Positions 17,542-64,000 of a DNA stretch of 64,000 nt are shown here, piece after piece. The notes beneath the pieces are model-generated. The model was not told the DNA's origin and did no database searches. It saw nothing but the letters and a program-made list of their open reading frames with translations. Position 1 is the first letter of the stretch. Every line of letters starts with the position of its first letter. The translations under genes were made by a program, and so were the position numbers. The DNA is taken from contig CM054057.1 in NCBI GenBank assembly GCA_028641055.1, forward strand, positions 401,626,814-401,690,813, given 5' to 3'. Origin of the DNA: Alopecurus myosuroides (lineage: Eukaryota > Streptophyta > Magnoliopsida > Poales > Poaceae).

Positions 17542-17622
17542 AAAACGAGGAGGAAGGATTTGCTGAAGAGGGGTATTGCAACTCCTGTTACTTTCAGGAC
17601 CAGGACCATCACTTGTACCAAG
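17542..17622 (+). CDS. G1 LTR acidic mini-gene, candidate internal exon
   Basis: An 81-bp segment after ACGACGTTAG and before the GC-type donor AAG|GCAAGCC. Phase 1 reading begins ENEEEGFAEEGYCNS and stays open to the last base. The R1 equivalent is the same length. The leftover G joins the first two bases of 18855-18922 as an Asp codon. The protein function is unknown. Confidence 0.55.
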
Positions 17623-18370
17623 GCAAGCCATCCTAATGCTTGCTGTATAAATACTTATAATTATCTATCATGCATGCTTTTCACTTCTGAAGTTTTCACA
17701 AAACTATACTCTCAAAACTATTTTTGTGGTGAATACTACTACTATTAATATTATTAGAAGAAGGAAATCATATTAATAGTCAACTTGGTATTACCAAGCC
17801 CTTAGCCACTAAATGGTATATAATATACCATCCACCAAATTAAAACTTGGGTTCTTAAATGAACTAAATAAAATGTGCTTTGTAAACAAATACCCTATGA
17901 AGGAAAAACCCCGGAGGAAGGGTGAGACCCTGTCTACCGGGAGAATGCCATGAAGGGAAATTTTCAGAAATGTTTACAAAAGACACATAACCTAGTCTTC
18001 GCTGGACAACCATTATCGTACTGCCACTTTACCCCAATATGGGTAGGGGCTTGATTAAAAACTTGTTATGGTTAGTATGTGAGCTATCTCAAAGTGCTAT
18101 AGAGGATTGGATCCTCCGAACCGAAATGTCGCTAGGAGTGAGCAGACGGGACATCTAAAGTGTGGGATTAATTTTCCCTCCGGATGCAGCAGTTGGGTCT
18201 CCTGTCTGGGCGGTGTGTGACACGGCTTGCCGGGGAGGGGTAACCCCAATTGAAGAGATAGTCATGTTCTAGCTTGTACATAGTGGATATTCAAGATCAG
18301 TTATCTGATGTTCTCATAGGTTGAGGACAGTCCATGGTTGTTTCATGGCGGATTCTGGATCTAGTGGAAA

Positions 18371-18428
18371 TGTGTACACCTCTGCAGAGTAAAACTATTT
18401 CGAGATAGCCGCGTCCTCGGATATGGAC
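18371..18428 (+). promoter_or_regulatory. Conserved CTGCAG block in the G1 LTR
   Basis: Reads GTGTACACC, CTCTGCAGAG, TATTTCGAGATA, GCCGCGTCCTCGG, ATATGGAC. Same order as in R1, L2, G3 and G4. It lies inside the candidate intron, about 430 bp before the terminal exon. Confidence 0.7.
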
Positions 18429-18854
18429 GGTTGAATGGCCATGTAGCTAGTATTGTGTCAACTTTTCAAAAGAGGTTTTGAAGGACGGCTTTGTACCTGC
18501 GAGGTACTATGGAGGAATGACTTGGTATCTGCGAGATACTGATGAGAAGGAAACTATTACTACAAGTTTCTGAAAAGAAAACTTTCTTTTCTAAAAGTCT
18601 TATAAAACCTCCAAGATATGTGATATCTACGAGAGAAAAACTACATTATTTTAAAAGGATTTTTCACTAAGAAAGAAACTTGAAGAATCAACCATGATAA
18701 ATCTTTTATATGTCATGGGTAGCTTAACCATATGTATGGCCTACCCACTCCACCAAATAAGCATGTATGCATTTATTGTAAGCTCATAAAGGATGTCTTG
18801 TTGAGTACATTCAAATGTACTCATTTGGTTTCGCCCCTGGTATCTACTTATCAG

Positions 18855-18922
18855 ACTACGAGGAGCCACCCCAGGAGGAGTTCTACGAGGAGGAGTTCTA
18901 CACTGATGGCCCTGCGAGTTAG
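18855..18922 (+). CDS. G1 LTR acidic mini-gene, candidate terminal exon
   Basis: A 68-bp segment after CTTATCAG, open to TAG at 18920-18922. It is very acidic (EEPPQEEFYEEEFY), starts with Asp after joining, and ends GPAS. It matches the R1 exon in length and the G3/G4 exon in its first residues (DY). About 275 bp of LTR follow, enough for a 3' UTR. Confidence 0.55.
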
Positions 18923-19197
18923 GATCGTCTCCCAGTCAGCAGCCTGTAGGATGAGGCGTGACTCGGGCTCTACTACGCTATGCTTGTCGTCTTCCGCTGT
19001 GTTTATTTTGAATGTCTGTCCTGTGTGACAGTTATCAAGAACTTGGTCATGTGACCATTTATGTAAGACTCTAATATTCGTGTAATGGATGATGTATTCT
19101 GTATGCCAACTACGTATGTTGTTCACAACTGGTTATTCTGGGATTGTGAATGAATGCATATGAGGGGTTCTGAACCTTCCGGTTTGGGGCCTCTACA

Positions 19198-19566
19198 GCA
19201 AGGCTAAGTTTGTAAAAGATAGAGCACTCACAAAGTGAGCTCCCCCTATTTTTCACAAACCAAGCCCTACTAGAGCAAGCATTTGAACAATTACAAATAG
19301 AGAGACAAGGATAAGGCATAATGAATAATGATAAATAAGAGATAGCTTCACCACAAGGTCTCTCACAAATAACAACCATTGTTCACTTAAACACGCAAAT
19401 CGAAATCAACTAAGATAGTGGGAACACAAGTCATAAGAGGCAAATCAAGTTCAACGACTTGTGTTCCGAAGCAAATAAAGCAAAGTGGAGAAGACACAAA
19501 GCTACTTCTCCCCCTTTGGCATCGAGACACCAAAAAGGGGCGAAGAGAACAACGCGGTCCAAAGGC
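19198..19566 (-). other. S1 3' non-coding region
   Basis: No gene. The minus strand has AATAGGGGGAGCTCACTTTG near 19230-19250, which is purine-rich like a polypurine tract. The sequence after it does not match the start of the S1 LTR (TGAAAGTGCAAAC), so it is not the LTR edge. G1 cut the element here. Confidence 0.5.
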
Positions 19567-28830: not shown

Positions 28831-31800
28831 TGTCAGACCCCGGACCCAGAGATATACATACTGTTATGTGCTCCTAGTCATGGACTCACAAGGGCTTCAG
28901 GGTTACCAGCCCCGGCCGCAACAAACAACGGCAGGCAGACCAGATTCATCGGCACGTAGTCCGGATCCCCGGTCTACTACTCCTTGTATCCATGCTAGTC
29001 ATAACCAACTGTGCATACCCAAGCGTCCACGAGTCGGATGAAACTGAAGGAACGGGACCAAAGTTATACAGAGCTGCTATGTGTCCAGAAAGTGCAACAA
29101 CAATCGAGGGTTACTGGGGTTACCTCGCCCCAGGCCGATCATATCGACAGGCGGGCTCGGACATGGATCATCGGCTCCACAACCCCTCGACTGTGACAAC
29201 TATGCAGGCATAGCCAAAACTGTATAGCAATGAGCTCGAAACCAACAACCGATCAAAGCAACACTCTAGACATGAAGTTGTATTAAACAGATGTTACTAG
29301 AGTATAGCTTACAAGCAGAGGTCACACGACCCAACATTACATCAGACAACGGAAAGCAAATTATGTTGCTAATCAACAAGAACCAAAAAGGCCTAAGAGG
29401 CCGCAACATAAGGCGACGTCCCAGCCCATAGATTCCAGGCTGCTACCTGGGAACCCCAAACTACTCGTCGATGTCCACGTTGAAATACCACCGAAGTGAG
29501 GAACTCCACCTGAACCAAATTGAAGCAAACATGAGTACGGGAGGTACTCAACAAGACTTAATCAACCTATCATATATCTGCTAACTTCAGAAAGGGTTTT
29601 ATGAAGGCTGATTTGCGTAAAGCAATCTTTGTTTTGCAAGTTGAGGAAGGGATAGCACGTCTCATAGAATATTTTGAAAACAGATGAGGAAGCTACTCAA
29701 CTACTGAAATCATCATCTTTTTAATCCACCAACTCATATCAGCACATCGTGCTTCAAAGATCACCACCTCAAGTTGTTTCGGTAACTCATGCTACAAGGT
29801 AACCCCTCTCGGCATCTCCGAGGAGGCATCCTTCATTCGTTATCAGCAAGTTTTAATCATTCCGTTTAAGTTGTCTATGATCACAGAATCCGTCACCAAG
29901 TCGTCCTTAACCGCGGACACGGCTTTTCGAAAAGATTTAACCCTGCAGGGGTGTACAACTTTAACCACACGCACCAACCAACTCTTAATGCCACTAGATT
30001 AGCACTATTCCGGGAAGTGCCGGCAGATGGAGGTTGACCACGACCTTTCCCTTACTTCGCCTATTCCATGAGTCGCTCCGAGTAGAGATGGACCGCCAAT
30101 AGGGAGTGGCCATCTCCTGCCGGGTCTCTATCGTTGTGCGCGATGCTCGACGGTTGCCTACCCACATTGCGCCGATACATCCCCACATCCTAGTTTTGAA
30201 AGTGTTTTGATATCCCCGCAAATCGAAATGGAAAGCCCGAACTAGGCAACTCATGGAACAAACTAGGCAAGCTGAGACCGAGGGGAATCCAATCCCTCGT
30301 GTGGATGCACGCTCAGTCTTGGCTCGAAGACGAGAACTCGCTCCTAGGGGCATGAACGAGACAACCACCACAGACCCTCTGTGATCTCGTCATCCACACC
30401 TTTAAGTCATATTAAACAAGAATCTCTTAACTTACCACAACATACTTTCATACTAGATTCATTCTCGGCTCTGATTCACCAACCGGATGGAGCAGAGATA
30501 ACAGGCATGTATGACTAGGCATGGCATATTTGAGGCTTTGGCGGTGAACACAATCAAACCTATGGATGCTAGGAGTAGTGGATCAGGTATAAGTAGGCTA
30601 TGCATCATATAGGACAACTCTAACTACTGACACAAAATACATTGGAATCGAATGCATTGTACGAGAATGAAAAGTCTTTCAAAATCATATATGGGCAGAT
30701 AAGAGGTTATGCTTGCCTTGCTTCAAGAAAACCAGAGAAAGTCTTCAGGAATAAGTGCTTGACTTGTCGGTTAGGATCAAGTATTCGCCATAGCGTTGTC
30801 GATCTTCTCTTCGGGGTCACGTTCTACCGATCAAAAGCAAAACACCGGGAGAGAAACAACAATCAAACATGGCATCGATGCAATGCGCAATATGTATGCA
30901 TGAGCAAGTTAATGCACTGAAATAAAGCCCTAAGCATGATCGTTGGGTTGCTAGGTTTCATATGTCCGTTAGGTATTTTTACTGAATTTATCCCGAAGTA
31001 GACCCCGGAGGGGGTTTCGGGCGATTCTAAAAGTGAGTGCAATTTTAAAAGCCCAAATGGGTTTGAAAACATCATAAATAGGTTCCAATTGTCATTTTGA
31101 GCAAAATGGCATATAACTTTTAATTTTCTAATTTTATTGAATAAAAACTTATTTTCTCCATTTTAAATGATTAAACAATATTAAATAAAGGCCATTTTTT
31201 GGAATTTCTCAAACATGTGTGAAAATGGTATTTTTGGAAAGAGAACATTTTTATGAACATAACCATATATTCACTTTATTTTTCTGGTCAATATTTTATT
31301 AGTTATTCAAATTACAAAATTAATTCATTTTCTGAAATTATTAAACAGAAGGAAATATGACATCACAGTGAGGTAATGCCGATGTCATGCTGCTCTGCTC
31401 CTCACAGCCGAGATCAAATTCGATCAAATTCGGATTCAAAACGGAAATCAAAGTACATAGCGAGGAAGAGGAGATCGAGGGGAACTAGGGGATGCCAACC
31501 GGTGACCATTTGGTCGCCGGAATCCTCGCCGGCGACGAGGTCCGACGGCGGCCGAGGAGGGTTCACGGTGGCAGGGAGCTACGGTGCACGGGAGGGAAAG
31601 CGGAGATGACGGGGGGGCTCACCACAGCGAGGGGAGGCTAGAGGAGGGGTCGGGGTAGGCAGTGGCGGCCGGAATCCGCCGCGGCGAGCTCGGGAACCGG
31701 CGGCCGGGTTCGGAAAAGAATGGCCCGATTCGGCCATTCCGGGGCGTCTCCGCAAACGCGAGTGAGCGAGGGGGTAGAGAAGAGCACGGCGGGGCTGGTG

Positions 31801-36175: not shown

Positions 36176-39100
36176 TGTCAGACCCCGGACCCAGAGATAT
36201 ACATACTGTTATGTGCTCCTAGTCATGGACTCACAAGGGCTTCAGGGTTACCAGCCCCGGCCGCAACAAACAACGGCAGGCAGACCAGATTCATCGGCAC
36301 GTAGTCCGGATCCCCGGTCTACTACTCCTTGTATCCATGCTAGTCATAACCAACTGTGCATACCCAAGCGTCCACGAGTCGGATGAAACTGAAGGAACGG
36401 GACCAAAGTTATACAGAGCTGCTATGTGTCCAGAAAGTGCAACAACAATCGAGGGTTACTGGGGTTACCTCGCCCCAGGCCGATCATATCGACAGGCGGG
36501 CTCGGACATGGATCATCGGCTCCACAACCCCTCGACTGTGACAACTATGCAGGCATAGCCAAAACTGTATAGCAATGAGCTCGAAACCAACAACCGATCA
36601 AAGCAACACTCTAGACATGAAGTTGTATTAAACAGATGTTACTAGAGTATAGCTTACAAGCAGAGGTCACACGACCCAACATTACATCAGACAACGGAAA
36701 GCAAATTATGTTGCTAATCAACAAGAACCAAAAAGGCCTAAGAGGCCGCAACATAAGGCGACGTCCCAGCCCATAGATTCCAGGCTGCTACCTGGGAACC
36801 CCAAACTACTCGTCGATGTCCACGTTGAAATACCACCGAAGTGAGGAACTCCACCTGAACCAAATTGAAGCAAACATGAGTACGGGAGGTACTCAACAAG
36901 ACTTAATCAACCTATCATATATCTGCTAACTTCAGAAAGGGTTTTATGAAGGCTGATTTGCGTAAAGCAATCTTTGTTTTGCAAGTTGAGGAAGGGATAG
37001 CACGTCTCATAGAATATTTTGAAAACAGATGAGGAAGCTACTCAACTACTGAAATCATCATCTTTTTAATCCACCAACTCATATCAGCACATCGTGCTTC
37101 AAAGATCACCACCTCAAGTTGTTTCGGTAACTCATGCTACAAGGTAACCCCTCTCGGCATCTCCGAGGAGGCATCCTTCATTCGTTATCAGCAAGTTTTA
37201 ATCATTCCGTTTAAGTTGTCTATGATCACAGAATCCGTCACCAAGTCGTCCTTAACCGCGGACACGGCTTTTCGAAAAGATTTAACCCTGCAGGGGTGTA
37301 CAACTTTAACCACACGCACCAACCAACTCTTAATGCCACTAGATTAGCACTATTCCGGGAAGTGCCGGCAGATGGAGGTTGACCACGACCTTTCCCTTAC
37401 TTCGCCTATTCCATGAGTCGCTCCGAGTAGAGATGGACCGCCAATAGGGAGTGGCCATCTCCTGCCGGGTCTCTATCGTTGTGCGCGATGCTCGACGGTT
37501 GCCTACCCGCATTGCGCCGATACATCCCCACATCCTAGTTTTGAAAGTGTTTTGATATCCCCGCAAATCGAAATGGAAAGCCCGAACTAGGCAACTCATG
37601 GAACAAACTAGGCAAGCTGAGACCGAGGGGAATCCAATCCCTCGTGTGGATGCACGCTCAGTCTTGGCTCGAAGACGAGAACTCGCTCCTAGGGGCATGA
37701 ACGAGACAACCACCACAGACCCTCTGTGATCTCGTCATCCACACCTTTAAGTCATATTAAACAAGAATCTCTTAACTTACCACAACATACTTTCATACTA
37801 GATTCATTCTCGGCTCTGATTCACCAACCGGATGGAGCAGAGATAACAGGCATGTATGACTAGGCATGGCATATTTGAGGCTTTGGCGGTGAACACAATC
37901 AAACCTAGGGATGCTAGGAGTAGTGGATCAGGTATAGTAGGCTATGCATCATATAGACAACTCTAACTACTGACACAAAATACATTGGAATCGAATGCAT
38001 TGTACGAGAATGAAAAGTCTTTCAAAATCATATATGGGCAGATAAGAGGTTATGCTTGCTTGCTTCAAGAAAACCAGAGAAAGTCTTCAGGAATAAGTGC
38101 TTGACTGTCGGTTAGGATCAAGTATTCGCCATAGCGTTGTCGATCTTCTCTTCGGGGTCACGTTCTACCGATCAAAAGCAAAACACCCGGAGAGAACAAC
38201 AATCAAACATGGCATCGATCAATGCGCAATATGTATGCATGAGCAAGTTAATGCAATGAAATAAAGCCTAAGCATGATCGTTGGGTTCTAGGTTTCATAT
38301 GTCCGTTAGGTATTTTTACTGAATTTACCCCGAAGTAGACCCCGGAGGGGGTTTCGGGCGATTCTAAAAGTGAGTGCAATTTTAAAATCCCAAATGGGTT
38401 TGAAAACATCATAAATAGGTTCCAATGTCATTTTGAGCAAAATGGCATATAACTTTTAATTTTCTAATTTTATTGAATAAAACTTATTTCTCCATTTTAA
38501 ATGATTAAACAATATTAAATAAAGGCCATTTTTTGAATTTCTCAAACATGTGTGAAAATGGTATTTTTGGAAAGAGAACATTTTTATGAACATAACCATA
38601 TATTCACTTTATTTTTCTGGTCAATATTTTATTAGTTATTCAAATTACAAAATTAATTCATTTTCTGAATTATTAAACAGAAGGAAAATATGACATCACA
38701 GTGAGGTAATGCCGATGTCATGCTGCTCTGCTCCTCACAGCCGAGATCAAATTCGATCAAATTCGGATTCAAAACGGAAATCAAAGTACATAGCGAGGAA
38801 GAGGAGATCGAGGGGAACTAGGGGATGCCAACCGGTGACCATTTGGTCGCCGGAATCCTCGCCGGCGACGAGGTCCGACGCGGCCGAGGAGGGTTCACGG
38901 TGGCAGGGCGCTACGGTGCACGGGAGGGAAAGCGGAGATGACGGGGGGGGCTCACCACAGCGAGGGGAGGCTAGAGGAGGGTCGGGTAGGCAGTGGCGGC
39001 CGGAATCCGCCGCGGCGAGCTCGGGAACCGGGCGGCCGGGTTCGGAAAAGAATGGCCCGATTCGGCCATTCCGGGGCGTCTCCGCAAACGCGAGTGAGCG

Positions 39101-41559: not shown

Positions 41560-42714
41560 CTAAGAAGAGAAAAGGTCTGGATACTTCTTGCGAAGATCCT
41601 CTTCGGTCTCCCACGTTGCCTCTTTATCGGAATGATGAGACCACTGCACTTTTAAGAACTTGGTGCTCTTGTTGCGAGTCTTACGTTCGGTCTCATCGAG
41701 AATTCGAACAGGGTGCTCCTCATAAGAGAGATCTTCTTGCAGTTCAATGGAATCATGATCAACTGCACGATCTGGATCTTTGAAGCACCTCTTGAGCTGT
41801 GACACGTGAAACACATCGTGCACCTTGGATAGCTTTTCTGGAAGTTCAAGACGATAGGCATTTTCTGCACGCCTTGAGAGAATGTTGAAAGGACCAATGT
41901 ATCTTGGTGCAAGCTTTCCTTTGTCACTGAAACGATGAGTGCCTCTGAGGGGAGTTACACGGAGATATGCTTTGTCACCAGGTGCATAGATCATATCCCT
42001 GTGCTTGCTGTCATAGTAGCTTTTCTGACGAGACTGCGCAATCTTGAGATTGTCACGAATGATGCGAACTTTCTCTTCGGCTTCCTTAACAATGTCAGGG
42101 CCTAAGAGTGAACGTTCACCAGCTCCAGACCAATTGATTGGACTCCTGCATCTGCGGCCATAGAGAGCCTCAAATGGTGCCATGCCTAGGCTTGCCTGGA
42201 AGCTGTTGTTGTAGGAGAATTCAGCATATGGAAGACATTCCTCCCATTTCATGCCAAAGGAGAGACCACATGCTCTGAGCATATCCTCGAGAATCTGATT
42301 GACTCTTTCGACCTGCCCTTGAGACTGAGGGTGGTAGGCTGTGCTGAACAGAAGTTTGGTGCCCAATGCTTCTTGAAAACTCTTCCAGAAATGAGAAGTG
42401 AATATGCTTCCACGGTCTGAGCTTATTTCCAATGGAACACCATGAAGAGGAACAATCTTTGCTGTGTAGAGCTCTGCTAACTGGCTAGCTGAGATTGTTT
42501 CTTTGACAGCAAAGAAGTGAGCTACCTTAGTGAGACGGTCAATGACAACGAAGATTGCATCGTTGCCCCTCTTGGACTTTGGAAAACCAGTGACGAAGTC
42601 CATTTCAATCATGTCCCACTTCCACTCAGGGATTTTCAGAGGTTGGAGAAGACCGGCTGTTTTCTGATGAACTGCCTTAACACGTTGACAAACGTCGCAT
42701 TCAGAAACGTTCAC
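41560..42714 (-). pseudogene. G3 integrase core and chromodomain
   Basis: Starts inside the integrase zinc finger (CDVC, Cys6 and Cys9). Catalytic Asp39 and Asp100 follow, then Glu136 in GQVERVN, a GPF-type region (LAPRYIGPFNILSRRAENAY) and a C-terminal chromodomain (PVRILDETERKTRNKSTKFL, then EEATWE-like KEATWE). It is in a different frame from the upstream part. Compared with G1, 11 bases are missing between the zinc-finger His and Cys pairs, which explains the break near 42714. The chromodomain places G3 in the same clade as G1. Confidence 0.92.
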
Positions 42715-45700
42715 GTTTCATGCCAGGCCACCAATACAGTGTCTTGAGATCCTGGTACATCTTTGTACTTCCAGGGTGTATGGAGAGAGGAGTTTCATGA
42801 GCCTCCTTGAGAATGACACCTTTGAGACTTTGAGCTTGAGGAACTGCAATGCGTCCTTCGAAGAACACAGTTCCCTTGTCATCAATTGAGAAGGACTTAA
42901 ATTTCTCCTTGCCTTCTTTGATGTGTTCTACCATCTTCTTGATTTCAGCATCACGAAGTTGTTCAGAACGAATCTTGTCCTCGAGAGTTGGACTGGCTGT
43001 CAAGTTTGCAAGATAGCCTTGAGGAACAAGACCAAGGTTCAGCTTCTGGAATTCTTCATGAAGAGGAGGTTGGCTTTCCATGATCATGAGATTATTGCAA
43101 TACGACTTGCGACTGAGAGCATCGGCCATAACATTAGCCTTGCCTGGAGTGTAAGAAATGGTAAGATCAAAGTCCTTAATCTTTTCAATCCATCTCCTTT
43201 GCCTGAGGTTTAGATCTGGTTGAGTGAAGATGTATTTCAGACTCTTATGATCGGAAAAGATTTCAGTGCGATTACCCAACAAGTATTGTCTCCATTTCTT
43301 GAGGGCAAACACAACTGCTGCAAGTTCAAGGTCATGAGTGGGATAATTGAGCTCATGTGCGTTCAACTGACGTGAAGCATAAGCCACAACTTGACGTTCT
43401 TGCATAAGAACTGCACCTAGACCTTGGAGAGAAGCGTCACAGAATATCTGGAAAGGTTTGGAAGGATCTGGGCCAACCAGAACTGGTGTAGAAGTGAGTT
43501 TAGTCTTCAGGAGATTGAAACTTTCATCACACTGTGGAGACCAAACAAACTTCTTGTCCTTCTTTGTGAGGTCAGTGAGAGGTTTAGCAATCTTGGAGAA
43601 GTTTTGGACGAAACGACGGAAATAGCTAGCCAAGCCAAGAAAACTTCTTACTTGCTTCACCGTCTTTGGAGGTTTCCAATCAACAATTGCTTTAACCTTT
43701 TCTGGATCAATGGCTATGCCCTTGGCAGAGATGACATGACCAAGGTAAGCAACTTCTGAAATCCAGAACTCACATTTGGAGAACTTGGCATAAAGACGAT
43801 GCTCGCGAAGCTTCATGAGGGTTAGACGAAGATGTTCTTCATGTTCTTCCTCGGATTTTGAGTAGACAGGAATGTCATCAAGATATACCACAACGAACTT
43901 GTCGAGGTATTCATGGAAGACAGAATTCACGAGTCGAGAGAATGTCGCCGGTGCATTGGTGAGACCAAAGGACATGACGGTGAATTCATATAGACCGTAG
44001 CGAGTGGTGAAAGCTGTTTTTGGAATATCCTCTTTTCTGATCTTTATTTGATGGTAACCCATTCTCAAGTCCAACTTGGAGAATATTGTGGCTCCAGCAA
44101 GTTTTTCAAAAAGATCATCAATACGAGGAATTGGATACTTGTTTTTGATGGTTTTCTCGTTAAGAGGACGATAGTCAACAACGAGTCTCTTTGTGTGATC
44201 CTTCTTCGCAACGAACAGAGTTGGGCAACCCCAAGCCGAGGAACTAGGTTGAATGTAACCTTTTTCCATGTACATATAAATTTGTTCCTTTAACAACTTC
44301 AGCTCGGGAGTTCCTATCTTGTAGGGATGCTTAGAGATTGGAGCAGTACCTGGCTCAAGCTCGATCACGAACTCAACTGCTTTGTCCGGAGGCATCCCTG
44401 GCAACTCTTCTGGAAAGACGTCAGGGAATTCGCAAACCACCGGAACGTTTTCAAGTGAAGGTAGAGGTTTTGCATCGAGGCTGCACAGCTGAAAGGAACT
44501 TGATTCATTTGGAGAATAGATTATCTGGCCAGAAGGGTGGAACATAGTTATTGACTTTTGAGCACAGTCAATCCTTGCTTTATTAGCTTTCAGCCAATCC
44601 ATACCAAGAATGACATCAATGTCAGAACTTCCCAGCAACATGAGAGAGGCAAGGAAAATGTGGCCTCCAATTAGGATTTGATTATCCTTACTTATCTTGG
44701 AAGTCAACATTTGAGATCCCGGAGAGTGGACAGTGATTTGATTGCTTAGCGGAACCACAATTAGGTTGTTTGTTGTGGCAAAAATCTTTGACACAAAAGA
44801 ATGCGATGCTCCGGTATCAAACAACACTTTAGCTGGAAAAGAGTTTACGGGTAATATACCGAGAACGACGTCAGGAGCTTCCTCAGCTTTGTCGATCTTG
44901 ACATGATTCACCCTTGCGGTCCTCCCGACAGGCCTGTTGTTGGAGTTGAAGGCTTTAGGCGGGGGAGCGCGCACCATTGCCTTGTTTGTGTTGGGACGAG
45001 GTGGTGGTGGAGGTAGCTGCCTCTGCATGCACTTGTCAGCGTAGTGCCCCGTCTGCTTGCACTTGTAGCAAGTGACGACACGAGGAGGCCCTGGTCTTGG
45101 TTGCCCCATCGAAGCCCTCTGATCATGCATCTGAGCAGGGTTGGGTGGGCGGGGAGCGAAGCCTGGAGAAGCTTGGGCGTATGGAGCCCGAGTGACAGCA
45201 CCATTTGGCACCCAAATGCGGCGCTTCTGCGGAGGGGTGGTCATGTTGGAGGAGGAACCACCCTCACGCGAGTGCTTGCGAGACTCCTCGAACGCCTTGC
45301 GCCCGTTTTCTTCATTGAGCGCGGTGTTAATGAGCTCCTCGAAGTTGTTGGACTTGATATTGGTGAGGGCGTACTTGAGTTCCGGGTTAAAACCTCTGCG
45401 GAACCTTGCCATCTTCTTAGCCTCAGTGGCCACCTCATCACCAGCGTAACGAGCGAGGCGATTGAACTCACTCTGATAGCCAATGACGTCCAACTTGCCC
45501 TGCTTGAGTGAGCAAAACTCTTCACGCATCCTTTCCATGAGACCATCTGGAATGTGGTGCTTCAGGAAAGCTTCCTTGAAACAAACCCATGTGATTGGAA
45601 AGCCAGCTCTCATGGCCTGGTAGTTTTCCCACCAAGTAGCTGCCTGATCCTTCAGCAGATAGGAGGCATACTTGACCTTGTCTTCCTCAGCAACGTGAGC

Positions 45701-45937
45701 AATCTCCAGAGCCTTAGCTATCTCACGGATCCAGTCATCAGCGTCCAGAGGCTCGCGTGTGGCCACGAAAGCTCTCGGACCCAGACTGAGGAACTCCTTG
45801 ATGCTGACTCGTGGAGCATTCTGGTTGTTGTGCTGGTTAGTCTGAAACTGGGCCATCTGTGCCATGACTTGGGTCATCTGAGTCAACAGCTCCGTGATTG
45901 GCGGTGGCTCAGGCGGGTTGTTCCTTGTTGGCGGCAT
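42701..45937 (-). pseudogene. pol: G3 gag, protease, reverse transcriptase, RNase H
   Basis: A 1078-codon frame starting at an ATG right after a splice-acceptor-like TTTCCATTCAGG. Gag has [17 protein letters not shown] and a complete zinc knuckle (Cys290, Cys293, His298, Cys303). The protease DTGAS is at 374-378 and the RT YLDD at 685-688, followed by Ile-Pro where family members usually have Ile-Leu. RNase H has Asp834, Glu871 and Asp896. The integrase zinc-finger His are 1047 and 1054. The frame ends prematurely after GMKRE because of the 11-base loss. Otherwise there is no internal stop. Confidence 0.93.
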
Positions 45938-46146: not shown

Positions 46147-47079
46147 TCACGCAGGACGGCGGCTAGGAGTACGGCGAGAGGTACGGTGAGGAGCACGCCC
46201 ACGAAAGTAGGTAGAACGACGATCCACATAGATCTGACGTGGTCTGAGAGCGACTCTAGGTGTGGTGAAGTACATAGCGTCGACTCCCTGTGCTCCAAAG
46301 CGTGGAATCCCAGTGTAACCAGCACCGAGGTTGAGGAGTGGACCTCTGATCGGCTCGTAACCTCCAGCATCTGGCAGACGACGACCAACTGGCTGATCGA
46401 AACGTGCAAAGCGCTCATCTCCAACAAAGTCTGTGGTGTAAGTCGCCAGACGAGTCAAAGCAAGGTAGAGCTGCTCTCTGACTGAAGCCAACTCCTGAGA
46501 TAGTGTGCTGGCAACTGCGTCACTGTGCCTCACAAACTGAGCGGTGGTGTGCAGCCTGGAGTTATCATGCTCGTAGACATCCAAGTTGTCGTAGAGAGTG
46601 AAGTGAGCTCCCTCCGAAGTGATGTAACCACGGGGGATGTGGCGATAGATAGAATCGTCAAATCCCCAGTAGTCAGCACGAAGGACGGTGAGACTCACAT
46701 AAGCTGCCTGCTGCACAGCCATATCCACTGTGGAACCTACTGCCTCGTAGCGGTGGACTACGCTCATGCCATCATCTGACAGAATGTAGACGATAGCCTG
46801 GTAGTAGGTCTGGTCAAACTCTCGCTGCTGCTCGTAGACCTGGTACTCTGGTGCCCAACGGAACCCCAGAAAAGTGACCATGTCTCTCAGCATCTCCGGA
46901 TAACCGGCAGTGCTCTCGCAACGAGTCATACGAACCACCTGCGGGTAGAACCTGAGATCCATCTGCAGATGATCGGGGAAGTTTTGATTAGACGCCGGTA
47001 GAAGAACTGAAGTGGAAAGCAACAACAAGGTTTCAACGGACGAAAGGATGTTGAGAAGAACAGGATATCGAAGCAACAT
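46147..47079 (-). CDS. G3 pre-gag protein
   Basis: A 310-codon minus-strand frame between the primer site and gag. The true start may be the Met at codon 40 (MDLRFYPQVV), because the first part is hydrophobic and lies in leader sequence. The middle (MAVQQAAYVSLTVLRADYWG, then HFTLYDN) corresponds to the G1 pre-gag region. The tail is Arg-rich (RGRAPHRTSRRTPSRR), unlike the acidic G1 tail. No catalytic motif. Its retention as an open frame in two families suggests a real but unknown function. Confidence 0.75.
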   Translation of the reverse strand: MLLRYPVLLNILSSVETLLLLSTSVLLPASNQNFPDHLQMDLRFYPQVVRMTRCESTAGYPEMLRDMVTFLGFRWAPEYQVYEQQREFDQTYYQAIVYILSDDGMSVVHRYEAVGSTVDMAVQQAAYVSLTVLRADYWGFDDSIYRHIPRGYITSEGAHFTLYDNLDVYEHDNSRLHTTAQFVRHSDAVASTLSQELASVREQLYLALTRLATYTTDFVGDERFARFDQPVGRRLPDAGGYEPIRGPLLNLGAGYTGIPRFGAQGVDAMYFTTPRVALRPRQIYVDRRSTYFRGRAPHRTSRRTPSRRPA

Positions 47080-47487
47080 TGGGGAAACACGAGACCAAAC
47101 ACTCCTGAGGTACTACGGAAAACCCATCCAGGCTTCTAAAGGATCAATATCTACTGCTTAAGGAATAGAGGATCTGCTTCCGGGGCTTACACGCCTCCGT
47201 TCTCAATCGTGAGTAGGCAACATGATAAATCATGTCACAACCACCTCCATTCTATGGTCTAGTAGATATAACTATCCTAGAGAAACCAGGATACGAGAAA
47301 CCCTAACTTGAAAGTTTAGATGAGAAGAGAAAACAACGTTGCACTTCCTTACCAGAAAAAGGGAGGGTGGGTGGGGAAAGAAATAAAAGAACAGAATTCC
47401 TACTCTCACGTTTCATTTTTCCTATATAGCTACAAAATAGTTTCTAGACTCAACTGCGACCAGTAAAAGGGATCCTACAGGCAGACA
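47080..47487 (-). other. G3 leader
   Basis: Non-coding leader between primer site and pre-gag. About 47100-47480 is nearly the same as the G4 leader at 63660-64000 in the opposite orientation, confirming that the two elements belong to one family. Confidence 0.7.
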
Positions 47488-47972: not shown

Positions 47973-48037
47973 CTACTCGTCAGCAGCCTCGTCATACTCC
48001 ACGTAGTAGCCTCCATGGGGATCCTCGGAAACGTAGT
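47973..48037 (-). CDS. G3 LTR acidic mini-gene, candidate terminal exon
   Basis: 65 bp after TTTCCGCAG, open to TAG. The peptide starts DYVSEDPHGGYYVEY and ends in an acidic tail. G4 differs by one synonymous base (GGA for GGT). The phase matches the exon at 49251-49328. Confidence 0.6.
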
Positions 48038-48449
48038 CTGCGGAAACCACAGCCCCAAAGGGGTCAGTACAGACAAGTACTGGCAAGCAAGACTCACAAG
48101 ATACCATAGTGTACCCGGCAACACCAAGTACAGATGCTTTGGGTTCAACGGAAGAATAGGTGATACAAAAGTGCGGCAGCAGGCTGCTCTAACCAACTAC
48201 AGAAACACGCTACAACATCCGGCTAAAAGAGAGGGATAAGATAGCGTATCGTAACCAACTATAACTAACCTCAAACAAACCCATCCTGGATCTCGCCCCT
48301 TATCCAAAGAAGCAATCCGAGGATAACTCACATAGTTGGATTAATGATGGTTCAAGTTATTGTGTCAATAAGCTATTACTAGTCAAGTTATCATTAGTTA
48401 GGTGTAAGTTGTTCTGAGTACTTGTTAGCCAGTACTTTCACCAAGTCAA

Positions 48450-48505
48450 CCATAACCGCGGAAAACACGGCTTCTCGAGAAGATTTAACCCTGCAGGGGT
48501 GCACC
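48450..48505 (-). promoter_or_regulatory. Conserved CTGCAG block in the G3 LTR
   Basis: Minus strand: GTGCACCCCTGCAGGG, TTAAATC, TTCTCGAGAA (perfect palindrome), GCCGTGTTTTCCGCGG, TTATGG. It lies in the candidate intron, about 410 bp before the terminal exon. Confidence 0.7.
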
Positions 48506-49250
48506 AATTTGGCCGTACACGTAAGAATATCCCGCCAGATGGAATGCCTTCCACCAAGCGAGGCACTCAACACAACCCAACTCTTCTTCGCATCAAGCCC
48601 AAAGAACCCCGTGCAATTGAGCGCACGGCTAATCAAGCCCCACGAAGAAAAGGGACCCTCATAGCACTCTAAGAACGTGTCTCCCTAAATGCTGACTACA
48701 AAAATTCCACCCTGGCCTCGGGTTCGTACCTGCATATGCGTGCGGCAAATGGAAAACCCGAACTAAATGAGGCGATTTGGACGAGATGCGAATCGAATCA
48801 AATTGAGGGGGGCGCCCATACACGCTTCCCACATGCGGATAGTGCGCTCATCATGGATCAGTAGACAAGACCCTTTTCCTAATTAGGTCGACACTAGCAG
48901 GCCTCAAAACCACGTCGGGCCTCCTGCCGGTGCCTTATCATCAAATTAGCATTACCTCAAACATTAACAGGTTGATTGTTTGAACATCGAGCCCCAGAAC
49001 ATAATAAATATGGTAACAGAAATAACGGACAGCAAACTCGAGCAAAAACAAACCTAAGCATGCTAGTAAGACACGGGCAACAAGCAACGGGGTTATAGGT
49101 GTGGAGGTGAGGCTATATCAGGGTTAAAGGATAACATGTGATAGGATCGGAACACAAGCAACGATTCATAAGGCTAGCAGAATAGACAACGGAAAGTATC
49201 GGTATCCAATGTGGAAAGGAACACAATGGTTCATGTGAGTGAATACTTGC

Positions 49251-49328
49251 CTGCAAACTCAGCAGCCTGGTACTGAGCTAACTCCTCAGAAGTAGTGTCG
49301 TAAACCTCGTCTGTCTCAACGTCGTCGT
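49251..49328 (-). CDS. G3 LTR acidic mini-gene, candidate internal exon
   Basis: 78 bp between CTCGAATAG and the consensus GC donor GCAG|GCAAGT. Phase 1 reading: DDDVETDEVYDTTSEEL, then AQYQAAEFA. G4 differs at three bases, two of them synonymous. GC-AG introns normally need this strong donor context, which supports real splicing. Confidence 0.6.
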
Positions 49329-50379: not shown

Positions 50380-51115
50380 ACCCCGCAGTGGCCCAGCCCA
50401 GGCCACTGACAGAGGGGCCCTGGGCCACGGTGGCCCGCGTGTGTGCGCGTGGCTGCAGTGCCGCTGACAGGGAGGCCCACCTGTCAGCGCTCGCGGTGCA
50501 AAAATTGGTGGTTTATTCCGCAAGGGGCAGGGATCGAACACTCGACCCCGTGAGCGCGTGCGTGTGCTGTTGCCACTGCGGTGGCGAATCGTTTTTGTCG
50601 GTATGGGAGGCGCAGGGAGGATATGGTTCAGTTAGCGCTGCTAACTGAAACTGAATTTGATTCAGTTGACTGAACCTGTCGACAGATCGGTGCTCGCCGG
50701 CGGTGACTGCTGCACTGCTGCTACTCACGGTGGACGCGCTGGTGCTCGTGGGTGTGCGCGTGCTTGTGACGTGACGCAGAGAGAGGGAAAGGGGGGTGGA
50801 AAAGATGGTGCTCACCGGGAGGAAAATCAGAGGGAGGTGCTCGGGGCAGTGGACGACGGCGACAGCGAGCTGGACGGCGGCGGCGCTGCAGCAGCTCTCT
50901 GTGCTCGCTGTGGTGTCGAGGAAGTAGAGGAAGCCATGGGGGCTTCGTTCCCGTGGCTAGCCAGGCCTGGAGGTGGCCAACTCGGCGGCGATCATCGGAG
51001 TACAGTGGCGGTGGTGCGGTGGGTTCAGAGGTGGGGTGGTGCCGCGACAGAGAATAGCGGGAGAGAGGGGGAAACGACGGCGGCGAGAGAGGGAGAGAGG
51101 AGGGAGGACTAGGGC
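50380..51115 (-). promoter_or_regulatory. GC-rich leader of the G3 LTR
   Basis: A GC-rich block with a short frame from ATG near 50936 (MASSTSSTPQ) that resembles a frame in the G4 LTR but stops at TGA before the donor. A Pol III B-box-like TGTTCGATCCC is on the minus strand at 50530-50540. Best read as a transcribed 5' leader with a splice donor. Coding is doubtful. Confidence 0.4.
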
Positions 51116-54711: not shown

Positions 54712-56869
54712 TGTAACACCCAGGGTTTCCCAATTAGAACTTGATTGTTTTTCTTTTTGTGCATCTCATGTCATCTTGCATCATCATTCACCACCCTAAA
54801 TTTAAGTTCACCGAAAACTTTTGATTTGTGTACCTCTCAAGATTGCAAAAATTATAAAATGTTTTGAGCCTTCTAAATATCTCAAAGTCCTTCTTTTGTT
54901 TTTTTGAAAATGATAAAACAAAGAAAAAATGTTTCGAGGCAGCTAGCCAGGCCAACCAGCCCAGGAAGCCCACCCACCAAATCGAGCCCACCTTCTCTTC
55001 TTCTCCGTATGGACGGGCACGAGGAGAGCTTGACCCCCTCCCATACCACAACCACCACCACCTCCTCCCATGGTCCCCTCTTCCCCCTCCTTATCTACCC
55101 TGAATGCGCCCAAGAACCGTAGCCTCCCCTTCCCCTCTCCCTCCTGCCGCCGCCGCCACCTTTTCTTTCTCCTTCTCCTCTCTGTTTCTCTGAAAGCGTT
55201 GCACACACACCTACACACCGTAGAACCTCGTCCTCGTCCCGCGGCCACGGTTCCTGTTGAGGCGAGCTAGCCGCGGGAATGGAGCCGCCGTGCTATCTAC
55301 GTCGTGCATGCTGCAGATCAGGAGCCGAGTCCGCCCAGTTCGTCCCTGCCGTAGCCATCTTCCTCCTCTGTCCCTGAAATGCCGGTGACATGTTTGTGAC
55401 AACCAACACGGCAACGGCCCCTTCAACCTCGTCCTTGAGCCTCTCATGGTGAGCACCACCCTCGGGACTCCTTCCCATACCCTCCCCTTGCTCTGTGTGC
55501 GCGCCTTCGAGCGGCAAAATCGCGTCATGCTCGCTGCAGGACGTCGTCGTTCTCGTTCTGTCCCCATCCCGTTCTCTGAATCTTTGGGTGTCAAAACTTC
55601 AGTTAACCGCGATTCCTGTCTCTTATTCAGACGAATCTATATCCTATCACAAGCATGCAACACAGTCCAGTGGCTGACCCCTCCGTCCGTCCCCCGGTGC
55701 GGTAGAATACCATCTCCTTTTTAACTCCTATTACCGCGCGACGGACCTTACCTGTCATTGACCTTGCGCGCCACGTCCGCTTCCCAGTCGCCTCGTCAGC
55801 GCCCGCGTGGCACAGGGACCCGCTGGTCAGCCTCTGCAGCTGGCTCTGCCTCCGGGGAGAAAATCCCAGATCCAGATCTGGATCTGGAATCTTGCACCCA
55901 GGTCCTTGGCGTTCCTGTTTTTACACCGGAACCCTCCCACTCCCTGTTTCCCTCACAACCGCGTCCCTGCAATTTTCAGAAAACACCCCAATATTGTAAT
56001 GCTTATAACTTTTGTTTTACAATTCCAAATAATGCAAACTTTATGTCTAATTTTATCAGAAAAATGCAAGGAACCTTAATATGTCATCCATGTTCATGTT
56101 TGCATATTTATTATTGCATTGTAATAGTGTTATGCATGTTCACCTAAATAAGAAAAACATGGAATGTGTTGGGGGTATTTAATTCAATTTGTGCCCTATT
56201 CCATTTAACTTGGTTTAGCTCATCTATCAATTGTTCTCCATGCTAAACAACATTTAATTTGATGGCTAGCTAAATAACTTGAACCTTCTATATAATTGTT
56301 GGGATTCCGATTCCATTTACATTGGTTTAGTTGCATCCCGCATGTCATGCATATAAAACAGTATCATGCTGGATATTTTTACCTAGTAGTAATTGTTGCA
56401 TCGGGTGTTTCTTTTAGTGCTTTTCTTCTTCACGGATAGGACGTTGAGATAATGTGTGCAACGATAAGTTCTGCTACCTCTACAAGCTGGATTCCAGGCA
56501 AGCTTTACTCACTTGCTACCTATGGCTGTCGTTCCTCACTTGTTATGGATGCTTTTCGTTGTCTTTATTCTAGCCTTATGATTCGATGCTTGTGTCTCGA
56601 TCCTATTATATGTTTACGTTGCAGCCATGATATAGCCTCATCCCCACCTCCTATGACCTGTTTGTTTCTTGTTTGCCTCGCGAATCGTAGCGCATGCTTA
56701 GGTTCTTTGGCGAGTTTGGTTCTTTGTCACCTGACTACTATGATAGGTTGGTTCAACTTAATTTAAAATGATCTTAATGCTTGGGGTAATAATAAAATTT
56801 GAATTCGAGTTAAGACACCGGCGGGAGGCCCGTCGAGGCTTTTGGTCCCTCTGGTGTCGCCTTAGGAAC
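54712..56869 (+). repeat. G5: truncated chromovirus LTR
   Basis: Starts TGTAACACCCAGGG. It shares the G4 layout: AT-rich start, CCTTATCTACC near 55091, a GC-rich leader, the donor ATG|GTGAGCACC at 55449, an AT-rich stretch, a degraded acidic exon (56440-56497), then sequence matching about 62220-62580 of G4. It stops near 56869, where S2 gag begins. No CTGCAG block or terminal exon remains. It is a distinct family from G3/G4. Confidence 0.75.
56440..56497 (+). pseudogene. G5 LTR acidic exon remnant
   Basis: Flanked like the G4 exon by GGATAG and CAG|GCAAGC, and begins with the shared GACGTTGAGA. It is 58 bp, not a multiple of three, so the frame is lost. The splice signals survive but the coding sequence does not. 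Confidence 0.45.
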
Positions 56870-59520: not shown

Positions 59521-59624
59521 TGAAAGTACACAAAGGTCAATAGAGGGGGGCGAATAGGTGACCTACAAATTTAAGTCTTTTTTCAATTTTAGTGGGGACT
59601 TTGGAAAGTTAATAACTTGGTTAT
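59521..59624 (-). repeat. S2 5' LTR fragment
   Basis: About 100 bp of LTR end (TGAAAGTACACAAAGG with a GGGGGG run) similar to the S1 LTR end at 28318. It is cut by G4. The five bases before G4 are GTTAT, the expected target duplication, whose partner lies outside the window. Confidence 0.8.
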
Positions 59625-60069
59625 TGTAACATCCCAAGTATGAAAAACACCATTAGAATGTTTGCTCCTTGTTAATTTATGTTTTGCATCATGTCATCAT
59701 AAGCATTGCATTTGTTTTCACTTGTTTTTCCATTTGAATTTCAAACCAAATTTCAAATCCTTGTTTCATACTTGTTCTGTTACAATTTTTCAAATGAAAC
59801 TTTCAAATCAAACCAATTATTTGTTTCCAATAAACTTGAAATTAAAAACTATTAACTTGCTTCTTTTCAATAATTCAATTAATACCAAATTCACTCAAAT
59901 TCATTTGAATTTCAAACAGGAACAAAATTTAAATTTTTGAAAAACAAAAATTTGCACATCTCGGCTTTTGTAAATAATAACCTATAAAAATTATTCCCTA
60001 AATTTTTAAACCCCAAAAACCCTTCTATTTCTCTCCTTTTCTTTCTTCTCTTTTCTGCAAAAAAAAACA

Positions 60070-61060
60070 GAGAGAAAAATAAAAAAAACGGGCTAGGGGA
60101 AGGCAGACCAGGCCAGCCAGCTGGGCCAGCCCAGCCCACCTTCCACCCCAGCCAGTGCAGCACGGCCCGCTCCCTCCTTTCTTCTTTCTCCGTACAGCTG
60201 ACGCGCCCTGACGCAAGCACGCACCACCGCACCTCCCCCTCGCCACCTGCTCCCTTTTCCTCCCCTATTTCTACCCCGGGAGCTCCCAAACCCTAACCCT
60301 AGCCCTCTCCTTCCTCCCTGCCGCTGCCATTCCTCCTCCTCCCTCTCAGATCACCTCCGTTTCTTCTCTGAACTTTCTGAAACTTCCGACGAGCAGCCAT
60401 GGCAGGAGATTGATGGGGTTGGTGTAGGGGTGTTGGTCATCGTCGAGTCTCCGCGGGCACGGGAACGGGATCACCATGCAGTCCTCTCCCTCCTCGCTTC
60501 ATCGACAGGGCCTGGGAGGCCTCAGATCGCCGCCGCCGTCTCCATCATCGTCGTCGGCCACCGTCACCTCGTTGAGTACCACTGCTCCCTCTACTTCCCC
60601 TCGGTGAGCACTGCCTGCACCCCCACGTCCTCCTCTGTTTCTCCTGCGTCACGCGCACGCACACGGTGCCCTCGCACGCACACGGGCAGCAGCAGCGCAT
60701 TGTCGCCGCCGGCGAGCGCATCTCCGTCAGGTTCAGAAAGACTGAACCTTTTGGTTCAGTTTCAGTTAACACCACGAGATCCACCTCAAAACCGCGCGTT
60801 CCCCTCCTCTGTCACGAAACGATCCGCACCGCAGTGACCAGATCCAACGGTGCGCAATGCCACGGCGCGGGTTCGATCCCCCGCAGCGCGGAATAAACCC
60901 AACTTTTTGCTCCCTTGCCACGCATGCACGCAGGGCCCACCTGCCATTGGCCGTGGATGCCACGCAGGCACACACACGCACGCCATGCAGCGCCAGCTGG
61001 GCGCTGGCCCACAGGCCAGTGACCCAGGGCTGCTCTGCCCCGCGTAGAAGAAATCCCAGG
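60070..61060 (+). promoter_or_regulatory. GC-rich promoter/leader of the G4 LTR
   Basis: GC-rich, with a telo-box AAACCCTAA downstream of a weak TATA-like string. A Ser/Pro-rich short frame from ATG near 60476 (MQSSPSSLHR) runs to the donor at 60604 but in phase 2, whereas the next recognised exon needs phase 1. It is therefore either untranslated leader or there is another exon between. Confidence 0.4.
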
Positions 61061-62127
61061 GGCCTTTTCTGAAGTTTCTTTTCGCATCCAAGCCCCTGGA
61101 CCAAATCTGAAACTTTTAAATTCACAAACTAGCCCCTGTAAATTCAAATTCAAATAACTTGTGCATTTAAAATCCAAATTTAATAAATAAAATATGTTTT
61201 CCATACCAAATTTAATTCTCTACATGTTTAAATCATTTGTGTACTGTTTTGAACATTTCAAATGTGTTCAAAAATTCAAATTCAAACTACTATTTCAAAT
61301 TTGGTCAAATTCATGACTAATTCAAATTTAATTCAAATGGCACATATAAAATATGTTTTCCATGCAAAATTGAACAAGCTTTCCAAATATAAACTTTGTT
61401 TCCTGTTTTGAATAATTAAAATTGGGTAAATAAATTAAATCTTGTTTAAATCATTTAAAATTGCTAAATTAATAATTTGGCCAAACTAAATTCTTTTTGA
61501 ACATATAAACTATGTTCAAACCAGAAAAATATAATCTTTTCAAATATGAATTTTATTTAATGTTTTGAACAAATAAAAATTCAAATAATCTTATAATTGA
61601 ATTAAATTCATTTAAATCTTGTCCAAACTTGTTTAATTCATAATTAATTCATTTTAAATCCATTGTCAACAAGTGAAACATGTATTCCACCTAAAATTTT
61701 GTGTTCTTTCTAAATATAAATTTTGTTATCTATTTTGAACAATTAAAATTGGTGAAAACAACAAATGCTTGTGTAACACATTTAAGAAGCCAAATTTCAT
61801 AACGTAATAAATAAAAATTCCAAACTTGGTAAACACCTTTTCAAAATTGAAGCTATTGTTGTTTTCTCATTGTTTTCCTCATCCATGCATCATTCTAATC
61901 AACTTTCAAATGATGGTTAGTTATAGATCATTTAATTCAACCTGAACTCATGGGCTTTTCCATATGCAATCCAAATTGCATATAGGCCCATTTAATTATG
62001 TTACCATGTCCACTAGCTTATCTTTGATGCATCAATTAAATTGCCATGCATCATCCCATGTTTGTGCATTATGCCATGTTATTGATTGTTGTCTCTCCGC
62101 ATTGTTTGTTTGCTTCTTCTCGAATAG

Positions 62128-62205
62128 ACGACGACGTTGAGACAGACGAGGTTTACGACACTACTTCAGAGGAGTTAGCCCAGTACCAGGCTACTGAGTT
62201 TGCAG
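62128..62205 (+). CDS. G4 LTR acidic mini-gene, candidate internal exon
   Basis: 78 bp between CTTCTCGAATAG and GCAG|GCAAGT. Phase 1 reading DDDVETDEVYDTTSEEL, then AQYQATEFA. It is the orthologue of G3 49251-49328. The final unpaired G matches the terminal exon phase. Confidence 0.6.
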
Positions 62206-62950
62206 GCAAGTATTCACTCACCTGAACCATTGTGTCCTTTCCACACTGGATATCGATACTTTCCGTTGTCTATCCTGCTAGCCTTAAGATTCGTTGCTTG
62301 TGTTCCGATCCTATCACATGTTATCCTGTAACCCTGATATAGCCTATCCTCCACACCTATAACCCCGTTGCTTGTTGCCTGTGTCTTACTAGCATGCTTA
62401 GGGTTGTCTATGCTCGAGTCTGATGTCCGTTATTTCTGTTACCTTATTTATTATGTTCTGGGGCTCGATGTTTAAACGACAACCTGTTAATGTTTGAGGT
62501 CATGCTAATTTGATGATAAGGCACCGGCAGGAGGCCGGGTATGGTTTTGAGGCCTGCTAGTGTCGAACTCAGGAAAAGTTCTTGTCCTCTAGATCCATGA
62601 TGAGCGCGCTAACCGCATGTGGGAAGCGTGTATGGGCGCCCCCCTCAACTTTGATTCGATTCGCATCTCGTCCAAATCGCCTCATTTAGTTCGGGTTTTC
62701 CATTTGCCGCATGCATATGCAGGTGCGAACCCGAGGCCAGGGTGGTAACTTTTGTAGTCGGCATTTAGGGAGACACGTTCTTAGAGTGCTATGAGGGTCC
62801 CCTTTTCTTCGTGGGGCTTGATTAGCCGTGCGCTCAACTGCACGGGGTTCTTTGGGCTTGATGCGAAGAAGAGTTGGGTTGTGTTGAGTGTCTCGCTTGG
62901 TGGGTTTGATCCCCGTCTGGCGGAATATTCCTACGTGTACGGCCAAATTG

Positions 62951-63005
62951 GTGCATCCCTGCAGGGTTAATCTTATCGAGAAGCCGTGTTGTCCGCGGTT
63001 ATGGA
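62951..63005 (+). promoter_or_regulatory. Conserved CTGCAG block in the G4 LTR
   Basis: GTGCATCCCTGCAGGG, TTAATC, TTATCGAGAA, GCCGTGTTGTCCGCGG, TTATGG. It is slightly degraded compared with G3 but in the same order and at the same distance from the terminal exon. Confidence 0.7.
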
Positions 63006-63413
63006 TGACTTGGTGATAGGGCTGGCTAACAAGGATTAGACAACTTACACCTAATTGATAATAATTTGACTAGTAATAGAATTATTGACACAATAACCTG
63101 AACCTTCACTAATCCCACTGTGTGAGGTATCCTCGGATTGCTTCTTTGGATAAGGGGCGAGATCCAGGATGGGTTTGTTTGAGGATAGTGGTAGTTGGTT
63201 CCGATACGCTATCTTATCCCCTTCTTTTAGCCGGATGTTGTAGCGTGTCTCTGTAGTTGGTTAGGCAGCCCGCTGCCGCACTTTTGTATCCCCTATCTTC
63301 CGTTGAACCCAAAGCATCTATACTTGGTGTTGCCGGGTACACTTTGGTATCTTGTGCGTCTTGCTTGCCAGTACTCGTCTGTACTGATCCCTTTTGGGCT
63401 GCATGTTCTGCAG

Positions 63414-63478
63414 ACTACGTTTCCGAGGATCCCCATGGTGGCTACTACGTGGAGTATGACGAGGCTGCTGACGAGTAG
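63414..63478 (+). CDS. G4 LTR acidic mini-gene, candidate terminal exon
   Basis: 65 bp after ATGTTCTGCAG, open to TAG at 63476-63478. It reads DYVSEDPHGGYYVEY after joining with the upstream G. The stop is 156 bp before the LTR end. Confidence 0.6.
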
Positions 63479-63636
63479 ATAGCGGACCCGGGCAGGATCC
63501 GAGACATCGTGGATGGGCTCCGTCTTTTATTTTCCGGCCTCTTAGGCCTATTTGGATCTTGCCGGTAAGCCCCGTAAGCCAATTATCTACTGTTTAGCGG
63601 GCTGTGAGTATCCTCTAGAAGTCCGGGTGCGACAAA

Positions 63637-63649: not shown

Positions 63650-64000
63650 TGTCTGCCTGTAGGATCCCTTTTACTGGTCGCAGTTGAGTCTAGAAACTAT
63701 TTTGTAGCTATATAGGAAAAATGAAACGTGAGAGTAGGAATTCTGTTCTTTTATTTCTTTCCCCACCCACCCTCCCTTTTTCTGGTAAGGAAGTGCAACG
63801 TTGTTTTCTCTTCTCATCTAAACTTTCAAGTTAGGATTTCACGTATCCTGGTTTCTCTAGGATAGTTATATCTACTAGACCATAGGAATGGAGGTGGTTG
63901 TGACATGATTTATCATGTTGCCTACTCACGATTGAGAACGGAGGCACATAAGCCCCGAAAGCAGATCCTCTATTCCTTAAGCAGTAGATATTGATCCTTT
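63650..64000 (+). other. G4 leader
   Basis: Non-coding leader, nearly identical to the reverse complement of about 47100-47480 in G3. The pre-gag frame would begin just beyond the window. Confidence 0.8.

Follow-up and report, generated by a model that had tools for sequence, protein, structure and literature searches.

The window, a stretch of 64,000 nucleotides of contig CM054057.1 of Alopecurus myosuroides, holds four LTR retrotransposons or parts of them (G1, G3, G4 and R1). The proteins of G1 and G3 contain gag, protease, reverse transcriptase, RNase H and integrase followed by a chromodomain, according to Pfam matches that include Chromo, and an additional frame, ORF0, lies between the primer site and gag in G3, G1 and another G1-family leader (L055). 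The LTRs are approximately 4.0, 4.4, 5.2 and 6.1 kb long, all above 3 kb, with borders taken from alignments and primer sites. In domain order, ORF0 and LTR length, these elements match Tekay-type chromoviruses with ORF0 (the Retrosat2/RIRE3/RIRE8 group), which are likewise described with LTRs above 3 kb, an ORF0 before gag and a Ty3/gypsy pol (PMC3485330). The initial annotation had named four chromovirus elements; pol with a chromodomain lies in the window for G1 and G3, while R1 and G4 are represented by an LTR plus the leader or the start of gag. The G3 ORF0 product has no match in Pfam, and gag-pol found no relatives among viral contigs. The elements are laid out as follows.

G3, minus strand: primer site at ~47494, then ORF0 and gag-pol with chromodomain; 3' LTR starting at ~41518
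41560 to 45937, minus strand: G3 gag-pol with chromodomain, split over two reading frames
46147 to 47079, minus strand: G3 ORF0, 310 aa
G1, plus strand: 3' LTR at ~14033-19198
8188-9096: G1 ORF0 (part)
R1, minus strand: 5' LTR at ~8285-2183, plus leader
G4, plus strand: 5' LTR at ~59621-63630, plus leader

LTR pieces of the G1 family occur as a pair ~11.3 kb apart (G000:C6:58155446 and 58166747) that is identical across the 260 nt compared, and from identical LTR pairs the family was probably active very recently. A young non-autonomous element in the window, D1, has LTRs that are 99% alike, with 10 substitutions packed into 16 nt (38670-38685 against 31337-31352) and many single-base indels; these differences may reflect assembly error.

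Acidic segments in the LTRs

Each of the four LTRs contains an internal segment and a terminal segment, hereafter exon 2 and exon 3, which the initial annotation had presented as a spliced acidic mini-gene. A further upstream exon is predicted in the LTRs of G4 and G3.

60304 to 60603, plus strand: final 300 nt of the predicted G4 LTR exon 1; G+C-rich; short upstream ORF at 60399
60604 to 62127, plus strand: G4 predicted intron 1, A+T-rich, with 28 ATGs
62128 to 62205, plus strand: G4 exon 2, 78 nt, acidic frame, phase 1 to phase 1
62206 to 63413, plus strand: G4 predicted intron 2, GC donor, CAG acceptor
63414 to 63478, plus strand: G4 exon 3, coding part with TAG stop
50816 to 51115, minus strand: final 300 nt of the predicted G3 LTR exon 1, whose donor is at 50815
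49251 to 49328, minus strand: G3 exon 2, 78 nt
47973 to 48037, minus strand: G3 exon 3, coding part with stop
17542 to 17622, plus strand: G1 exon 2, 81 nt, in the 3' LTR
18855 to 18922, plus strand: G1 exon 3, coding part with stop
3850 to 3930, minus strand: R1 exon 2, 81 nt, in the 5' LTR
2464 to 2531, minus strand: R1 exon 3, coding part with stop
56440 to 56497, plus strand: exon-2 homologue in another LTR fragment (56.5 kb), length 58, with a GCAAGC donor and splice-like borders; acidic frame lost
38059 to 38164, minus strand: D1 exon-2 homologue, start and phase unchanged, acidic at its start, then a stop

The description of the eight segments holds in its particulars. All lie at these coordinates on the sense strand, with internal lengths of 78, 78, 81 and 81 bp and terminal lengths of 65, 65, 68 and 68 bp; in all four LTRs the internal segment is preceded by AG and followed by GCAAGT or GCAAGC, and the terminal one is preceded by CAG and ends in TAG. 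Intron 2, predicted at 1208, 1213, 1232 and 1318 nt, spans the 1208-1318 bp first reported, and the phase-1 joint frame is open in each of these four LTRs. The D1 homologue of exon 2 is unequal in length between the two LTRs of that element and, like the 56.5-kb fragment, has borders resembling those of exon 2 around a frame that is not open. High acidity, claimed for all four peptides, is true of G3, G4 and G1 (33-37% Asp plus Glu, net charge -16 to -17), which contain neither lysine nor arginine, whereas R1 is only mildly acidic (23%, -5). Comparison of the acidic peptides with Pfam gave nothing above the cut-off (one weak match, G1, E 0.13), and comparison with solved structures gave nothing better than two weak matches at E 0.5.

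When candidate exon pairs on the sense strand are ranked by acidity, the described pair comes first of 40 in G4, 97 in G3, 130 in G1 and 49 in R1, and locally resampled LTRs reach the observed acidity in 0, 0, 0 and 1 of 150 trials, under candidate rules for both comparisons that were written after the finding was known. In G1 and R1 both exons stay open in a second, basic frame as well, phase 0 (17542-18922; 3930-2464); by acidity, the phase-0 reading of these segments ranks 108th in G1 and 39th in R1.

Between G1 and R1 the exons differ at 61 of 149 sites, compared with 312 of 1174 in intron 2 (Fisher P 0.0005), and have no indels, which at the indel rate of the intron has P 0.04. By codon position the changes number 18, 21 and 22, with no silent excess. 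This pattern is compatible with a coding segment that is either fast-evolving or relaxed, and is by itself no proof of coding. A G1 query returned 40 places at 99-100% identity, a set too young for a substitution test.

Copies of the G3/G4 family

The genome searched comprises 3.57 Gb, with at least 7 contigs of 352 to 782 Mb. A 300-nt query that covers G4 exon 3 and runs past it produced 53 matches in the 40 candidates scored out of 1475, and the resulting set consists of 38 LTR copies from the same genome (L011-L048), used together with G3 and G4. BLAST matches to both exon 2 and exon 3 are present in 38/38 fetched copies.

Borders resembling splice sites are widely retained. The exon 1 donor reads G/GTGAG in 34/38 copies and also in G3 and G4, even with exon 1 itself highly variable; AG precedes exon 2 in 38/38; the exon 2 donor is GC in 35/38 and GT in 0/38; and the exon 3 acceptor is CAG in 36/38 and TAG in 1/38. 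Donors were weighed with an approximate matrix. It is the conservation of these sites that supports the predicted splicing of the LTR segments. A genome search for exons 2 and 3 already joined, allowing at most 3 mismatches to the G4 spelling, found none, so spliced LTRs are apparently not copied back, as expected if unspliced RNA is the template.

Two further sequences recur in the introns. A block of intron 2 that contains small palindromic sequences (CCCTGCAGGG or CTCTGCAGAG) is common to otherwise diverged LTR families, at 62945-63015, 18370-18440, 37230-37306, 48404-48519 and 3028-3138. A packaging or dimer structure was considered for it and rejected, with one compensatory pair in five sequences and folding z scores of -0.18, 0.96 and 0.90 for the three sequences folded. 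Just 5' of the exon 3 acceptor, six LTRs carry the inverted repeat AGTAC...GTACT (63370 and 18804, plus strand; 48081, 2583, 36893 and 29548, minus strand).

Indel frequency, on which the initial annotation had proposed to judge the segments, separates exon from intron in this family. Relative to G4, the 39 rows formed by the 38 copies and G3 show 323 indel events in intron 2, one in exon 2 and none in exon 3, with 10 in the 74 nt 3' of the stop. For exon 2 the intron 2 rate predicts ~22 events where 1 is seen (0.33 against 7.17 per kb per copy), although some indel-free 60-nt windows exist in intron 2 too. After L031 was dropped for a gap, the joint acidic frame is open in 38 of 39 rows including G4, the exception being a stop in L029. 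The divergent copy L032 retains the length, the stop and the acidic and aromatic character of the peptide.

Substitutions point the same way in part. The pN/pS ratio is 0.40 in the acidic frame (0.35 in exon 2, 0.54 in exon 3), against 0.78 and 0.86 in the other two frames, while exon pS (0.074) is near intron divergence (0.0705); in G4 against G3 alone, 3 of 4 exon changes are silent. The family-wide comparison of exons with intron that had been proposed favours coding by this ratio but not by a count of distinct changes, in which 19 of 67 are silent and 48 are replacements, most of them private to one copy, with no silent excess (P 0.41). Changes were also assigned by parsimony to an intron 2 tree with a midpoint root and ties broken at random, in which 9 of 37 nodes have support of at least 0.9. 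Internal branches have seven exon changes, of which 5 are silent (P 0.017), and both replacements hit one residue; all 7 lie in exon 2, the low change of exon 3 being biased by its inclusion in the query. The internal rate is 0.049 per site in exons against 0.197 in intron 2, 31 of whose 209 windows are no more changed on these branches than exon 2. Of the 94 exon changes placed on terminal branches, 31 are silent (P 0.10), and the rate there is 0.657 against 0.752 in the intron. Constraint on internal branches followed by decay on terminal ones is the pattern expected of a retrotransposon protein, selected between transpositions and decaying after insertion.

The exon-2 peptide occurs with few changes, unspliced, in seven short protein records from other sources; in the protein collection, exon 2 was found in these seven short ORFs and in nothing among proteins of ~196-625 aa. 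A degenerate exon-2 pattern was found elsewhere in one bacterial contig (L001) and one viral contig (L002), the latter unrelated over the part examined. Genome queries with R1 exon 2 and with a 191-nt leader piece gave no matches and are uninformative.

The two LTR segments are probably coding in the G3/G4 family, as judged from patterns of sequence change. One alternative is that the introns merely shorten the leader of the gag-pol mRNA, with purine-rich exons that serve as splicing enhancers and are acidic by coincidence. Removal of both introns does lower the number of ATGs in the LTR leader from 57-110 to 6-21, the borders are retained in LTRs whose frame is broken, and the G1/R1 exon changes are spread equally over codon positions. 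A non-coding leader nevertheless fits poorly with a low pN/pS confined to one frame, with the third-position excess on internal branches and with a single indel event in 39 rows, and peptides free of lysine and arginine would be unlike the usual translation of purine runs. This account is therefore unlikely, though it retains some weight.

Candidate starts of translation

The initial annotation had described a two-exon gene hidden in the LTRs. Coding is supported in the G3/G4 family; a gene complete within the LTR is not, as it lacks an AUG route. No exon-1 AUG reaches the acidic frame in 36 copies, a result that holds for the fetched ones at every listed donor, and in the window exon 1 has phase-1 stops in G4 and R1 and no AUG in G3 and G1 over the stretch examined. 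Exon 2 has no AUG in the four window copies.

A gene contained in the LTR could still be expressed from an exon 1-2-3 transcript if the acidic frame were entered by non-AUG initiation after a short upstream ORF, in the manner of the RTBV leader, which has an AUU start besides its short ORF and splice donor (PMC5902531). A short exon-1 ORF is indeed present in 34/36 copies (at most 12 codons, mostly 4, 7 or 8), and AUGs are rare after it, the final 140 nt of 36 copies having 6 in all; GTA and TAG are, however, equally rare there (7 and 7). Nor is phase 1 of exon 1 favoured, with stops within 20 codons in 4 of 36 copies against 1 and 1 in the others, and the copies have no near-cognate start codon in common. 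Folding of 8 copies against base-shuffled controls gave no consistent hairpin signal (z -2.8 to 1.5). The leader resembles those of RTBV and CaMV (PMC5902531) in its short upstream ORF, splice donor and possible non-AUG ORF, and differs in that no shunt hairpin is shown here and the element is not a pararetrovirus. Initiation of this kind is accordingly considered rather improbable. As a separate observation, exactly one AUG is present in the last 240 nt of exon 1 in 25/36 copies, though subfamily sequences differ.

A start inside intron 1 was also considered, as read-through ORFs P0001-P0007 run into exon 2. It was rejected because G3 and P0005 use another frame there, and it is further disfavoured by intron 1 itself, which has no indel-free 60-nt window across 33 aligned copies (an alignment that omits L027, L031, L032 and four copies without a mapped donor).

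A candidate first exon lies instead 3' of the primer site.

63721 to 63784, plus strand: G4 leader AUG exon 3' of the primer site, 21 codons and one base, phase 1; donor CTG/GTAAGG at 63785
47353 to 47416, minus strand: G3 leader AUG exon, phase 1; donor at 47352, between the primer site (~47494) and ORF0

A strong donor between primer site and ORF0 is found in 6/6 internal regions of the G3/G4 family. The leader AUG opens 21 codons ending in phase 1, as exon 2 needs, in 20 of 27 leaders (5/7 and 15/20); the further 20 are the plus-strand members of 40 places scored out of 705 candidates, and identity is 99-100% throughout. In 6/27 (2/7 and 4/20) changes in T-run length put the exon out of phase, and 1/20, left uncounted, has a changed donor base. 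The G1 family offers no equivalent in the one leader available (L055), where the strongest donor lies inside ORF0 in phase 2 and no fitting AUG precedes ORF0; one out-of-frame AUG inside ORF0 does fit the phase of exon 2. The R1 and D1 leaders have no fitting AUG exon. In the G3/G4 family, a closer acceptor for the leader donor also exists, one base upstream of the gag AUG. The leader AUG exon is thus the best start known for G3/G4, and is not proven.

Phase-1 donors conserved among G3-family copies also lie inside gag-pol (44604, 44259, 43773 and the GC donor 43143), so other first exons are possible. Joined to exon 2 of the 3' LTR, such a donor would place an acidic tail on a truncated Gag or Pol. 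The C-terminal pol ORF, however, has no well-matching phase-1 donor common to G1 and G3, and phase-1 donors elsewhere differ in place between the two, which makes such a fusion very unlikely. Chance open frames, neither spliced nor coding, would suit the shortness of the segments (26 and 21 codons, with exon 3 bounded by its first stop) but are scarcely credible in view of the acidity ranking and resampling, indel avoidance, pN/pS, conserved splice sites and internal-branch silent changes.

A predicted spliced RNA and its relatives

The reading preferred here is that, in the G3/G4 family, the two LTR segments are the final exons of a small acidic protein and that its mRNA is a multiply spliced transcript of the retrotransposon, whose coding part begins in the leader AUG exon; the probability of this reading is put, on sequence evidence, at roughly 0.45. 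Transcription would start in the 5' LTR, and the AUG exon just after the primer site would be joined to exon 2 of the 3' LTR by splicing that removes ORF0, gag and pol. With the GC-AG intron 2 then removed, translation would stop at the TAG of exon 3. Through its weakness the GC donor may let some of the RNA escape splicing and serve reverse transcription, and the protein, whose only source would be spliced RNA, might regulate the element's own RNA, for example its nuclear export, by analogy with CERV of Cer1.

ORF0 itself lies in an intron-like segment (47352 to 45938, minus strand; likewise at 9473, plus strand, and in L055). A strong donor stands before ORF0 in G3 or inside the start of ORF0 in the G1 family (L055), and in G3 and G1 a pyrimidine-rich CAG stands one base upstream of the gag AUG. 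ORF0 could be translated from unspliced RNA and gag-pol from spliced RNA. A broader scheme, in which expression resembles that of lentiviruses and one leader donor serves alternative splicing to an ORF0 RNA, a gag-pol RNA and a doubly spliced RNA for the acidic regulator, with the conserved weak GC donor setting the balance of spliced and unspliced RNA, is offered as tentative and somewhat doubtful.

Several known systems share parts of this arrangement. In the C. elegans Ty3/gypsy element Cer1, CERV is a protein of 517 aa encoded by five exons, of which three use the gag frame (PMC10309623). As described for CERV, the predicted product would be a non-Gag-Pol protein of a Ty3/gypsy element, translated from a multi-exon spliced RNA (predicted here) with unspliced RNA as the genome, and both are divergent between species (PMC10309623). 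Unlike CERV, the predicted protein has ~68 aa, is acidic and has its last exons inside the LTR, and the two are likened by description, not by sequence. BARE1 and EVADE also separate a translated spliced RNA from the RNA that is copied, although in the accounts cited their intron is located at the end of gag or removes protease to give Gag alone (PMC3735527, PMC12786077); here the LTR itself holds the predicted introns, and the exons lead into a peptide of their own. For the Retrosat2/RIRE3/RIRE8 group, the main text of the published account mentions no LTR introns or coding exons, containing the words 'intron' and 'exon' 0 times and 'splic' once (PMC3485330). Among the matches listed in a search of titles and abstract openings in the open-licence literature, no description of coding or spliced exons inside a plant LTR was found.

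If the preferred reading is true, the G3/G4 family would consist of plant elements that carry a retrovirus-like accessory gene. The length of these LTRs, 4-6 kb, would be explained in part by selected coding sequence and conserved introns within them, and the split between translated and replicated RNA would become testable in an abundant element group.
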